Positions 2,187 through 49,210 of a DNA stretch of 60,302 bases are shown here, in pieces; within the stretch, counting starts at the first letter, position 1; each line of letters starts with the position of its first letter. The notes beneath the pieces were generated by a model, which was given only the letters and a program-made list of their open reading frames with translations, searched no databases and was not told the DNA's origin. Position numbers and translations under genes: made by a program. Source of the stretch: Sphaerochaeta sp. Phil3 (GTDB lineage: Bacteria; Spirochaetota; Spirochaetia; Sphaerochaetales; Sphaerochaetaceae); assembly GCA_001940825.1 (NCBI GenBank), contig MSGT01000059.1:1-60302 (forward strand), given 5' to 3'.

Positions 2187-3718
2187 TTGTCCTCCTTTGA
2201 CTTCACGCCGGCCATCATAAGGCCAATCTCCGATGCGGTCTTCTCTCCTTCATTGAACATTCCAACTATGCTGCCCTTTGAGATTGCAGCGATTCGGTCG
2301 CAAAGGTTCATTATCTCATCAAGTTCAAAACTTACAAGAAGAATCGCCCTTCCCTTGTCACGTTCTGCAACAATGCGCTTTCTAATATACTCAATGGCTC
2401 CTACATCAAGGCCCCTCGTTGGCTGCGCTACAAGAAGAACATCAGGAGAAAGCGAAATCTCGCGAGCGACGATGACCTTCTGCTGGTTCCCGCCTGACAA
2501 TGCACCACATGGAGTTATTGAACCCTGGCCGGAACGAATGTCGAACTGCTCAATGAGCATGTCGGAGTTCTTCGTTATGGCATCATAGTCCAGAACACCC
2601 ATTTTCCCTGTGTACTTTGGCGTATAGAAATCCTTGAGTACAGTGTTCTCTGCCACAGTGAACCCAGCAATTAGACCATGCTTTTGCCTGTCTTCAGGGA
2701 TATGTCCAAGGCCTTTCTCAACCCTTTCTCGTATCGAGCACTTGGTTATATCCTCTCCATTAAGGAGAATCTGACCTTTTTCAATGGGAGAAAGTCCTGA
2801 AAGGGCGTACAAGAGTTCCGTCTGGCCGTTTCCATCGACACCTGCGATTCCAACAATCTCTCCGGCATGTACATCAAGGCTCAGATCCTTTACCTTCTCC
2901 ACTCCAATTGCATCCTTGACGGTGATGTCCTTGATTTCAAGAACCTTCTTGCCCGGTTTGCATGTGGACTTCTCTATTTCGAATTTAACAGGTCTTCCAA
3001 CCATGAGGGATGCAAGTTGCTGTTCGCTCGTCTCTGGTGTTATATCTATGCAGTCAATGTACTTTCCACGTCTAAGGACAGTACAGCGATCGGCAACGGC
3101 CTTTATCTCCTTGAGCTTGTGGGTTATAAGCACAATGGTCTTTCCCTCTGATTTGAGCTTGAGGATTATCTCCATGAGCTCATCTATCTCCTGAGGAGTA
3201 AGCACGGCGGTAGGTTCGTCAAGGATGATTATATCCGAGTCCGAATACAAGGTCTTGAGGATTTCCACTCTTTGCTGCTGTCCAACGGTTATGTCGTCTA
3301 TGATAGCCTTTGGATCTACATAAAGACCATATCGTTCGCTCAGATCCTTGACCTTCTTCTCAGCTGCACCCAACGAAAGGATTCCAAATCTGTTCCTTGG
3401 TTCACGACCAAGGACTATGTTCTCCGTAACTGTGTAGTTATGGACCAACTTGAAGTGTTGATGCACCATTCCAATGCCCAATGACGTAGCTACGTTTGGG
3501 TCAGTGATCTTCACTTCCTTCCCATTGATAAGAATCTTTCCAGCATCAGCTGAATAGGCACCGAACAGAACAGACATGAGAGTGCTTTTACCGGCCCCAT
3601 TCTCGCCTAGGATTGCATGAACTTCGTTCTTCTTTACAATGAGGTCAACGTTGTCGTTTGCAACGATGCCTGGAAACGTTTTGGTTATTCCAAGCATTTG
3701 GATTGCATATTCGCTCAC
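2183..3718 (-). CDS. Nucleoside ABC transporter ATP-binding protein (two ATPase domains)
   Basis: A 511-residue tandem ATPase of the sugar/nucleoside-type (NupO/YufO-like) family that powers the two permeases. The first domain carries Walker A GENGAGKST at residues 38-46, signature TVGQQQR at about 144-150 and Walker B with LDEPT at 166-170. The second domain has a degenerate Walker A (GVDGNGQTE, no lysine) and signature SGGNQQK, as is normal for this family, so ATP turnover is probably asymmetric. It starts MSEYAIQMLGITK next to a good ribosome site. It lies 84 nt after the binding-protein gene, separated by a hairpin, and overlaps the next gene by 4 nt. Confidence 0.95.
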   Translation of the reverse strand: MSEYAIQMLGITKTFPGIVANDNVDLIVKKNEVHAILGENGAGKSTLMSVLFGAYSADAGKILINGKEVKITDPNVATSLGIGMVHQHFKLVHNYTVTENIVLGREPRNRFGILSLGAAEKKVKDLSERYGLYVDPKAIIDDITVGQQQRVEILKTLYSDSDIIILDEPTAVLTPQEIDELMEIILKLKSEGKTIVLITHKLKEIKAVADRCTVLRRGKYIDCIDITPETSEQQLASLMVGRPVKFEIEKSTCKPGKKVLEIKDITVKDAIGVEKVKDLSLDVHAGEIVGIAGVDGNGQTELLYALSGLSPIEKGQILLNGEDITKCSIRERVEKGLGHIPEDRQKHGLIAGFTVAENTVLKDFYTPKYTGKMGVLDYDAITKNSDMLIEQFDIRSGQGSITPCGALSGGNQQKVIVAREISLSPDVLLVAQPTRGLDVGAIEYIRKRIVAERDKGRAILLVSFELDEIMNLCDRIAAISKGSIVGMFNEGEKTASEIGLMMAGVKSKEDK

Positions 3719-3753
3719 CTTTGCCTCCTTTTGCTGTCTCCAACAATTACAAA

Positions 3754-3781
3754 GACACGCCTCATAGACGTGAGGCGTGTC
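3754..3781 (-). terminator. Intercistronic hairpin / partial terminator after the binding protein gene
   Basis: A perfect 11-bp stem (GACACGCCTCA with TGAGGCGTGTC, 6-nt loop) sits between the binding-protein stop and the ATPase start. On the minus strand only TTTG follows, so it is a weak terminator. It more likely protects the upstream mRNA or lets some polymerase through, giving more binding protein than transporter. The sister cassette has a stronger version at 8695-8725. Confidence 0.75.
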
Positions 3782-3802
3782 CGGTAATGGTTGGAAAGAC
3801 CA

Positions 3803-4891
3803 TCAGTCGTCGATTGCACCAAGACCTGCAGGTGCAATTCCCTTTGCCTGGGCTGCTTTGTATGTCTTGTCAACAACAATTGTGCCAGCAAGGATGCCTT
3901 CAGCGGCTTTGTCTGCTGCAGCTGCTGCAGATGCCTTGAGTTCGGAATTGGTCTTTGCATAGCCCACACCGCCGTTGGCCATATTCTGAGTAACGACTCC
4001 ACCTTTCCAGATGTTCTCGGAAACCTTCTTAAGAGCATCTATGGTTGAATTCTCAACCATCTTGAGCATGGATGTAAGGACTGCGGACTTGCCATCGGCA
4101 TAGATACCGTCTGCATACTGGTCTGAGTCAACACCAATTGCCCAAACGTTCTTGCCTGCAAGTCTTTCTTCCTTTGCCTGTGCAATTACACCAAGACCGC
4201 TTCCACCTGCTGCTGCGAAGATGCAATAGACACCCTGGTCGTACATGGACTTTGCAGCTGTCTTTGCAAGAGCCGGGTTGCCCCAATCGTTTACGTAGAA
4301 ATCAACGATCTCCGCCTCAGGATATATGGATTTGACACCCTCGATATATCCAATCTCGAACTTTGTTATCGTTGCACCAGCGACACCACCAACAAAACCA
4401 AACTTTGGATTCGCAATGCCATCGGCCTTGGCCTGCTCAGCAGCTGCGACACCAACGAGGTATGAGCCCTGCTCTTCCTCATAGATGTACTGGATGAGGT
4501 TGTCCCTCTGTGTGAGGTAGTCAACGTCTACGATGATGAACTTCTGGTCTGGATAGAGACCTGCGACCTGTTCAACGGCATCGGCCCATGTGAAACCTGT
4601 TGTGATGATGAGATCCCAGTCTGCCTCAGCTGCGTTCTTGAGGTTTGGAACGTAGTCGTCTGATGACTGAGCAGTGATGTTCTCATAGAGGACACCTCTT
4701 CCCGTGCCGTTGTCACCGTAGAAGTCAAGGATTCCACGCCATGCAGCGGCGTTGAACGACTTGTCGTCGATACCTGTTGCATCTGTAAGAAGAACAGCCT
4801 TGATCTGTTCCTGCTGTGCTTCCTGAGCGCCCTGTGCAAACACTGCGAAGGACATGCAAAGGACGAGAAGAGCCAATAAAGCTTTTTTCAT
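3803..4891 (-). CDS. BMP-family nucleoside-binding protein (cassette B)
   Basis: A 362-residue periplasmic solute-binding protein of the BMP/PnrA (Bmp, Med) family, which captures nucleosides for the ABC importer encoded next to it. The signal peptide MKKALLALLVLCMSFAVFAQ ends in a signal-peptidase-I type site (VFA-QGAQEA); the cysteine at residue 12 does not sit in a convincing lipobox, so attachment as a lipoprotein is doubtful. Family patterns include DDKSFNAAAWRG near the N-terminus, FIIVDVDY, and GVDSDQYADG before the C-terminus. It has its own promoter (4939-4967) and heads cassette B. Confidence 0.93.
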   Translation of the reverse strand: MKKALLALLVLCMSFAVFAQGAQEAQQEQIKAVLLTDATGIDDKSFNAAAWRGILDFYGDNGTGRGVLYENITAQSSDDYVPNLKNAAEADWDLIITTGFTWADAVEQVAGLYPDQKFIIVDVDYLTQRDNLIQYIYEEEQGSYLVGVAAAEQAKADGIANPKFGFVGGVAGATITKFEIGYIEGVKSIYPEAEIVDFYVNDWGNPALAKTAAKSMYDQGVYCIFAAAGGSGLGVIAQAKEERLAGKNVWAIGVDSDQYADGIYADGKSAVLTSMLKMVENSTIDALKKVSENIWKGGVVTQNMANGGVGYAKTNSELKASAAAAADKAAEGILAGTIVVDKTYKAAQAKGIAPAGLGAIDD

Positions 4892-47956: not shown

Positions 47957-47985
47957 TTGACATAAAACATCGAAAGCTGTATATA
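47957..47985 (+). promoter_or_regulatory. Strong promoter of the attenuated aromatic amino acid transporter
   Basis: TTGACA (47957-47962), 17-nt spacer, TATATA (47980-47985). It begins a leader of about 245 nt holding the Phe/Tyr leader peptide and terminator. Confidence 0.8.
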
Positions 47986-48039
47986 GGATGCAAGTTTATG
48001 CAGGAAACTGCAAAAACGGAAACCAAGATGGAGGGTTAT

Positions 48040-48138
48040 ATGAAGACATTGGTTCTTAAGTCAGACTCAGCAATGAACACAGCCCTCTTTTCGTCCTATT
48101 TCTACTTTTACTTTAGAAGTCCTCACCAATACGCCTGA
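48040..48138 (+). CDS. Phe/Tyr-rich leader peptide (attenuation control)
   Basis: A 32-residue open frame with GGAGGG 4 nt before its ATG and a TGA stop at 48136-48138. Residues 17-25 read FSSYFYFYF, and Tyr31 is next to the end: four Phe and four Tyr in 15 residues, six of them consecutive. This is the hallmark of a leader peptide whose translation senses charged tRNA-Phe and tRNA-Tyr. It ends 30 nt before an intrinsic terminator and precedes a transporter of the aromatic amino acid family. The peptide itself probably has no other function. Confidence 0.85.
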   Translation: MKTLVLKSDSAMNTALFSSYFYFYFRSPHQYA

Positions 48139-48196
48139 GCGTTGGAAACCATAGAAAAGAATGTGATGGGTCCTCCTCAGACGGAGGACCTTTTTT
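48126..48196 (+). promoter_or_regulatory. Transcription attenuator with three competing hairpins
   Basis: Hairpin 1:2 is 48126-48134 with 48139-48145 (CCAA..CGC/GCGTTGG), with the leader stop codon in its loop. Antiterminator 2:3 is 48144-48152 with 48166-48173 (GGA..CCAT/ATGG.TCC). Terminator 3:4 is 48169-48176 with 48183-48190 (GGTCCTCC/GGAGGACC, 8 bp) followed by six T residues. 1:2 excludes 2:3, and 2:3 excludes 3:4, as in trp/phe attenuators. A ribosome stalled at the Phe/Tyr codons would favour 2:3 and read-through. Confidence 0.8.
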
Positions 48197-48238
48197 ATTG
48201 CAATTACAATCCGCAGAGACGGATGAAGGAGAATGGAG

Positions 48239-49210
48239 ATGAAGAAAGTCGTTAGAATCGGTTTGGTACTGACAATGATGGCCTTGTGTGTGGCAAGTGC
48301 CTTCGCAGGTGGAAGCAACGAGAGTGCGGGAAGCCCAGGCAAGACCTATACCGTGGGGATATGCCAGCTCGTGCAGCACAACGCCCTTGACGCAGCTACC
48401 AAGGGCTTTGAGGATGCTCTCAAGGACAAGCTTGGAGACAGCGTGAAGATAATCGAACAGAACGCATCTGGCGACGTTGCCACATGCATAACCATAGTCA
48501 ATGGCTTCGTGTCATCCAACGTGGATCTCATAATGGCCAATGCAACCCCAGCCCTTCAGGCAGCGCAGGCCGCAACAGGTGACATCCCAATCCTTGGAAC
48601 AAGCGTCACGGACTATGGCACAGCCCTTGGAATGGAGAACTTCACAGGAACCACAGGTGTCAACATCTCAGGAACGAGCGATTTGGCACCGCTTGATCAG
48701 CAGGCCAACATGATAATGGAGCTTTTCCCAAGCGCAAAGAAGGTTGGAATGCTCTACTGTTCGGCAGAGGCCAATTCAGTTTACCAAGTGAACATTATAA
48801 AGGCAGCTCTTGAGAGCCACGGAATAAAGTGTCAGGACTTTGCATTCTCCGATTCCAACGATGTGTCGGCAGTAACGGCAAATGCCTGCAGTTGGAGCGA
48901 TGTAATCTACATCCCAACCGACAACACCGCTGCATCCTGCACTGAAACGATTCGCAACGTTGTGGAACCTGCGAAGATTCCTGTTGTTGCAGGAGAGGAA
49001 GGAATCTGCAAGGGCTGCGGAGTCGCAACGCTTTCGATAAGCTACTACGACCTTGGATACAGGACAGGCGAAATGGCGGCTGAAATCCTAAGAGGTGCAG
49101 ACGTATCGACCATGCCAATCCAGTACGCTCCAAAGTTCACAAAGGAATACAACGCAGAGCTCTGCTCCATACTTGGAGTCGAGGTTCCTGAAGACTACGT
49201 TGCAATCTAA
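48239..49210 (+). CDS. ABC transporter substrate-binding protein (COG2984, TrpX-like)
   Basis: A 323-residue periplasmic binding protein of the ABC_sub_bind/COG2984 family, annotated elsewhere as putative tryptophan/tyrosine transport. Signal peptide about 1-25 (cleavage near SAFA-GGSNES), then QLVQHNALDAATKGFEDAL, and the C-terminal pair CGVATLSISYYDLGYRTGEMAAEILRG split by the usual hinge. The start at 48239 (AAGGAG 7 nt upstream) is preferred to the ATG 6 nt earlier. The upstream Phe/Tyr attenuator suggests tyrosine and/or phenylalanine as cargo, an inference. Confidence 0.9.
   Translation: MKKVVRIGLVLTMMALCVASAFAGGSNESAGSPGKTYTVGICQLVQHNALDAATKGFEDALKDKLGDSVKIIEQNASGDVATCITIVNGFVSSNVDLIMANATPALQAAQAATGDIPILGTSVTDYGTALGMENFTGTTGVNISGTSDLAPLDQQANMIMELFPSAKKVGMLYCSAEANSVYQVNIIKAALESHGIKCQDFAFSDSNDVSAVTANACSWSDVIYIPTDNTAASCTETIRNVVEPAKIPVVAGEEGICKGCGVATLSISYYDLGYRTGEMAAEILRGADVSTMPIQYAPKFTKEYNAELCSILGVEVPEDYVAI

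Follow-up and report, generated by a model that had tools for sequence, protein, structure and literature searches.

A candidate Phe/Tyr leader-peptide attenuator upstream of a predicted aromatic amino acid importer in a spirochaete and its relatives

Leader-peptide attenuators are textbook regulators, known mainly from the amino-acid synthesis genes of other bacteria. In Firmicutes, both a His leader of hisZ/hisS (PMC2965389) and a Leu-rich attenuator peptide of S. aureus (PMC5794164) have already been published, which qualifies the view of the original prediction that described cases mainly control biosynthesis in proteobacteria. Tyrosine control has been classed under T-boxes (PMC1262725). 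Within the openly accessible papers, to which our search was confined (the subscription literature, e.g. the 2010 Lopatovskaya survey cited in PMC4833913, lying outside its scope), we found neither an aromatic leader in spirochaetes nor a Tyr leader peptide. For binding proteins of the PF04392 type, Tyr-, Phe- and Trp-bound structures exist (PMC6816091), so the earlier statement that the substrate of this family is usually guessed needs qualifying. In C. difficile CD0873, Glu-263 confers Tyr specificity by binding the Tyr hydroxyl, and Tyr-279 excludes Trp (PMC6816091).

We analysed a window of 60,302 nucleotides (the whole stretch of DNA studied) from Sphaerochaeta sp. Phil3, in which a leader region precedes the genes for a binding protein, a permease and an ATPase (Table 1). 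The three proteins matched the PF04392, PF02653 and PF00005 profiles, as predicted, and are encoded in one operon, identifying a COG2984/PF04392-type ABC importer by Pfam assignment rather than by COG name. The genome containing the window is 2.36 Mb, and its closest named relatives are Sphaerochaetaceae/Spirochaetales MAGs, in agreement with the proposed spirochaete host, taken here to be a gut bacterium. Among the relatives, the locus in G005 seems identical to that of a named Sphaerochaetaceae MAG (L079), and G003 seems to correspond to a Spirochaetales MAG (L053).

Table 1. Features of the leader region and of the importer operon in the window
Feature	Coordinates	Strand	Evidence
Promoter-like site: TTGACA 47957–47962, 17 nt, TATATA 47980–47985	47957–47985	+	Sequence
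Leader ribosome-binding site GGAGGG, before ATG 48040	48030–48035	+	Sequence
Leader peptide frame, 32 codons, MKTLVLKSDSAMNTALFSSYFYFYFRSPHQYA then stop	48040–48138	+	ORF translation; aromatic-rich short frames at orthologous loci
Candidate regulatory codons TAT TTC TAC TTT TAC TTT (Tyr-Phe-Tyr-Phe-Tyr-Phe)	48097–48114	+	Sequence; shuffles
Weak hairpin (segment 1:2) over leader UGA, CCA..ACGC CUGA GCGU UGG	48126–48145	+	Folding
Putative antiterminator segment 2, extending across the leader stop; core CTGAG 48135–48139	48131–48151	+	Duplex energy; swap test
Intrinsic terminator GGTCCTCC-TCAGAC-GGAGGACC: stem 48169–48176/48183–48190, loop TCAGAC, T6 48191–48196	48169–48196	+	Sequence, folding
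Substrate-binding protein, PF04392; alternative start ATG 48239 possible	48233–49210	+	Profile match
Permease, PF02653	49317–50240	+	Profile match; 77–81% identical to same-genus loci
ABC ATPase, PF00005	50233–51027	+	Profile match; same-genus comparison

The promoter had been called strong, which is generous: although the −35 element is a perfect match and the spacing is 17 nt, the −10 element agrees with TATAAT at only four of six positions, and for this reason the site was not listed by a consensus scan. TTGACA lies at a comparable distance 5′ of the leader at four orthologous loci (L006, L007, L009 and L010). The frame with its good ribosome site and Tyr-Phe run, and the GC-rich terminator with its six T residues, were both found as described and both went beyond chance, since in 20,000 dinucleotide shuffles of 47990–48232 neither a frame with six consecutive Phe/Tyr codons nor an 8-bp GC-rich stem followed by T6 occurred once. 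The terminator had a folding energy of −18.4 kcal/mol with an adjoining small hairpin included (z −3.7). Its 5′ arm and loop constitute antiterminator segment 3, in which CTCAG (48176–48180) pairs with the CTGAG core of segment 2 as part of a longer pairing; the 2:3 duplex had an energy of −13.6 kcal/mol, equalled in 3% of shuffles.

Folded to its minimum free energy, the full leader prefers the terminator, in keeping with a constitutive partial terminator behind a meaningless short frame, where the hairpin would merely lower expression and the aromatic run would be due to chance. The shuffles, together with the repeated conservation of aromatic frames and of terminator–antiterminator complementarity described below, make this explanation very improbable. 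Judged from its anatomy and the comparative data, which support the attenuation plan of the original prediction, the element is very probably a ribosome-mediated transcription attenuator.

Among 30 leader loci examined closely, 29 carried a GC-rich terminator with a U-tract 15–41 nt past the leader stop. The leader 3′ end or stop-codon segment was complementary to the terminator 5′ arm and loop, often over 8–14 bp, as in the 2:3 pairings CGTCTGAG/CTCAGACG (L006), GGTTTCAGAC/GTCTGAAAC (L013), GGGTTTGTGC/GCACAAACC (L011) and AGAAGTTTGTGC/GCACAGACTTCT (L101), and the 2:3 pairing was better than 95% of shuffles in 19/29 loci. The terminators were then clustered by sequence into 13 unrelated groups and partners were exchanged between clusters; own segment–terminator pairs were better than foreign pairs (permutation p 5e-5, 13 terminator clusters). 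At the sequence level, this result is covariation among leaders too divergent to align: terminator and antiterminator change together across loci, which upholds the competing pairing predicted for the window. The partner of the antiterminator was the terminator and not the importer ribosome site, and GC-rich U-tract terminators stand at nearly all leader loci. Both observations argue against a mechanism that senses aromatic limitation but acts translationally or through Rho, on the importer start or on Rho access, instead of on intrinsic termination; with the 94 nt between leader stop and importer start in its favour, we consider such control scarcely probable.

A 1:2 protector hairpin is typical of the trp/his type of attenuator, but is not obligatory for every attenuator. 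The predicted hairpin over the stop codon exists in the window sequence, but the segment around it folded no better than its own shuffles and the hairpin was not retained in relatives (29 loci, mean z +0.25). The element thus has the frame with regulatory codons, the intrinsic terminator and the mutually exclusive antiterminator overlapping the leader end that define a ribosome-mediated attenuator, and does not belong to the trp/his subtype with its 1:2 pause/protector hairpin. When a ribosome was placed at the aromatic codons and the terminator 3′ arm was as yet unmade, the window RNA adopted the antiterminator fold (−12.3 kcal/mol), whereas a ribosome placed at the stop codon gave the terminator fold (−16.7 kcal/mol); folding by ribosome position agreed with these two of the proposed states. 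In the window, the antiterminator, whose energy was calculated on the shortened RNA, does not match the terminator in strength and would have to gain kinetic priority as the RNA is being made. Given that relatives do not keep the protecting 1:2 hairpin, the antiterminator probably forms by default, with a terminating ribosome as the off-signal. Taken together with the two folds, this is most simply read as a two-structure switch that would be on by default and would be turned off by a ribosome finishing the leader.

We propose that, when Phe-tRNA or Tyr-tRNA is scarce, the ribosome would stall on the Tyr-Phe codons and leave the segment at about 48131–48151 free to pair with the emerging terminator 5′ arm and loop, so that RNA polymerase would continue into the importer genes. 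With both tRNAs charged, a ribosome reaching the stop codon (48136–48138) would cover segment 2, and the hairpin at 48169–48190 would end transcription. Alternatively, the leader might respond not to tRNA charging but to a ligand, such as a free aromatic compound, through nascent-peptide stalling of the TnaC or ErmCL kind. Arrest peptides normally retain exact residues, which counts against this possibility, as the leader peptides of relatives have no fixed motif in common and keep just Phe/Tyr codons, mixed or Tyr-only, shortly before the antiterminator. Nascent-peptide stalling is thus improbable, although the leaders are short and aromatic-rich and such arrest peptides exist (PMC8429421).

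The leader plan was found well beyond the window. The binding protein has a close ortholog in 30 of 139 genomes of the family, probably the Sphaerochaetaceae, and an aromatic-rich short frame lay 5′ of the importer at 15 loci in 12 Sphaerochaetaceae genomes (L001, L006, L007, L009–L015 and L122–L126), with frames such as MKNFYFYFFFSSSPRTSE, MTKARFYFYFFISPEKGVCA, MFGRTSYYYYYSSNPAVVCAGQA and MARNSYSYYYYYCVSVSSRVSNVL. Orthologs in Clostridia are 58–73% identical, and about 24 of 80 such loci had a leader of this kind, including one recognised by eye (L091). An automatic scan detected a leader in 32 of 109 regions, compared with 1.8% of shuffles. The aromatic codons are kept in 15 plus about 24 loci, but the leader was missing at at least six orthologous loci, five of them in the same genus, so that the importer can have other control. 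The binding protein of the window groups with a Clostridia ortholog (L031, support 84); horizontal transfer of the operon is not claimed, because the permease (Table 1) and the leader/terminator sequence have their matches within the same genus.

Two further arrangements were seen upstream of importers. In leaderless loci of the same genus (L002, L003, L004, L005 and L008), TTTGTN8ACAAA palindromes, mostly two, occur 0–210 nt upstream of the importer; one sits just upstream of the −35 element, and L010 has both a palindrome and a leader. These palindromes are possibly a repressor operator substituting for attenuation. In two other genera (L111, L112, L114–L117 and L120), no leader frame was found, and a terminator-like hairpin, e.g. 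AGTTGTCTTAGGACAACT with a T-rich tail, coincides with the predicted transcription start or lies close to it, about 35–70 nt 5′ of the importer; it could also be an operator.

Within the genome containing the window, Phe/Tyr runs of five codons were not enriched (29 versus 46 in the reversed-pattern control), giving no sign of a second copy of the element, and the window locus was the sole place with a short frame, a ribosome site and a strong terminator together. Two similar copies of a sequence in which GAAGAAAACTTTCTTC comes after a short poly-Phe frame (G000:C35:24284-24298 and G000:C52:56866-56880; L134 and L140) have no strong terminator and look like a repeated element.

The nearest solved structure to the binding protein of the window was CD0873 with Tyr bound (E 3e-52). 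Glu255 and Tyr271 of the window protein align with Glu-263 and Tyr-279 of CD0873, and this Glu and Tyr are present in 111/111 orthologs; the Glu is missing from more distant paralogs (30% identity). Tyr271 occupies the Trp-indole position, where TrpX has Gln, and against the model of TrpX tryptophan-binding proteins (NF041285) the window protein scored 238 bits, below the equivalog cut-off of 390.

The original prediction held that related transporters in Firmicutes use T-boxes, which recognisably applies to only two of about 80 Clostridia orthologs, the leader plan being carried by about 24. In the closest Clostridia ortholog, L031, the T-box (3669–3921, E 1.8e-17, below the gathering score) has a specifier loop GAA-UUC-A, corresponding to Phe in an alignment that is locally uncertain there. 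The other, at L051:3573-3876, also lies upstream of the ortholog and below the Rfam gathering score; its specifier is ambiguous, and we make no claim about its ligand. In the importer leader of the window, neither a T-box nor any other Rfam element reached the gathering score; RF00230 gave no covariance-model match in the window, and no GGUGGUACCGCG antiterminator bulge was found upstream of the importer.

The genome containing the window has chorismate synthase, but we found neither prephenate dehydratase nor, above cut-off, prephenate dehydrogenase in it, and leader-bearing genomes mostly have neither enzyme. Among genomes at least 90% complete, dehydratase was missing in 4/4 with the leader and present in 9/9 without it (13/13 coincide; Fisher p 0.001). 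These genomes are MAGs representing only 4–5 phylogenetically independent pairs, a number insufficient for significance, so that the link between leader and auxotrophy is not usable as proof; three exceptions (G005, G019 and G036) have both the leader and prephenate dehydratase. The coincidence nevertheless makes predicted Phe/Tyr auxotrophy a reasonable, if unproven, context for the importer. The idea that the Phe/Tyr codons are a clue to the cargo was corroborated by the Glu and Tyr residues common with CD0873, the UUC specifier of L031 and the mostly missing dehydratase and dehydrogenase. Thus the importer most likely brings Tyr and Phe into a cell seemingly unable to make them.

Two genomes carry tandem leaders (L013/L126 in G028; L123/L125 in G157). 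The operon order is a Tyr-only leader, binding protein 1, a Phe/Tyr leader, binding protein 2, and then a shared permease and ATPase. In another genome (G034), one binding protein is preceded by a Tyr-only leader and another by a Phe/Tyr leader. Where the leader is Phe-rich, residue 253 of the binding protein (window 48989–48991), two before Glu255, is Ala; where it is Tyr-rich, this residue is mostly Cys, Val or Thr. Because this pattern follows clades, it is a lead and not a test.

The Tyr-only leaders and the tandem Tyr/Phe leaders of relatives are the most novel part of these results. We put the chances at about even that the leaders form a widespread aromatic attenuator family of Clostridia and Spirochaetes, matching no Rfam family at curated threshold, in which a Tyr-only or Phe plus Tyr codon mix would report the ligand of the adjoining binding protein. 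Such a family would include Tyr-sensing leaders that may be the first predicted, operons with two attenuators in series, and switches that are on by default and lack a protector hairpin. Where each binding protein of an operon has a leader of its own, the value of leader codons as a ligand predictor can be tested directly, in a family whose Tyr, Phe and Trp members are difficult to distinguish and where a clue to cargo would come from sequence alone. Orthologs of one importer differ in carrying a leader peptide, a T-box or a putative operator, or in having none of the three, which also makes them a good case for regulator swapping. At the window locus, classical attenuation would be extended to a spirochaete and to importers.

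Compared with known systems, the window leader resembles the Phe_leader of Rfam (RF01859; proteobacteria, pheA and pheST) in its Phe codons in a short frame, its antiterminator over the frame end and its intrinsic terminator. The full length of RF01859 aligned to 48072–48197 (E 0.016), but scored 26.5 bits, below its gathering score of 55; the element appears to work like Phe_leader and is not a member. It differs in also coding for Tyr, in controlling an importer rather than synthesis or synthetase genes, in belonging to a spirochaete and in having no conserved 1:2 hairpin. The His and Leu leaders of Firmicutes are likewise ribosome-mediated and outside proteobacteria, in the phylum that holds most relatives of the importer, but concern different amino acids and target genes. 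The trpX T-box of Streptococcus suis (PMC9382623) also serves an aromatic importer with the same binding-protein family through tRNA-dependent attenuation, whereas the window has no T-box and its binding protein falls under the TrpX cut-off. With the tyrosine-binding lipoprotein CD0873 (PDB 6HNI-6HNK), the window protein has in common the Glu for the Tyr hydroxyl and the Trp-excluding Tyr; sequence identity is low and the ligand of the window protein is a prediction. Finally, uORFC-13-1 upstream of aroF in Acholeplasma (PMC8632094) differs in its biosynthesis gene, Phe-only coding, sequence and organism, but there, too, a Phe-coding frame has been proposed upstream of the gene and ahead of a terminator, in an unusual phylum.
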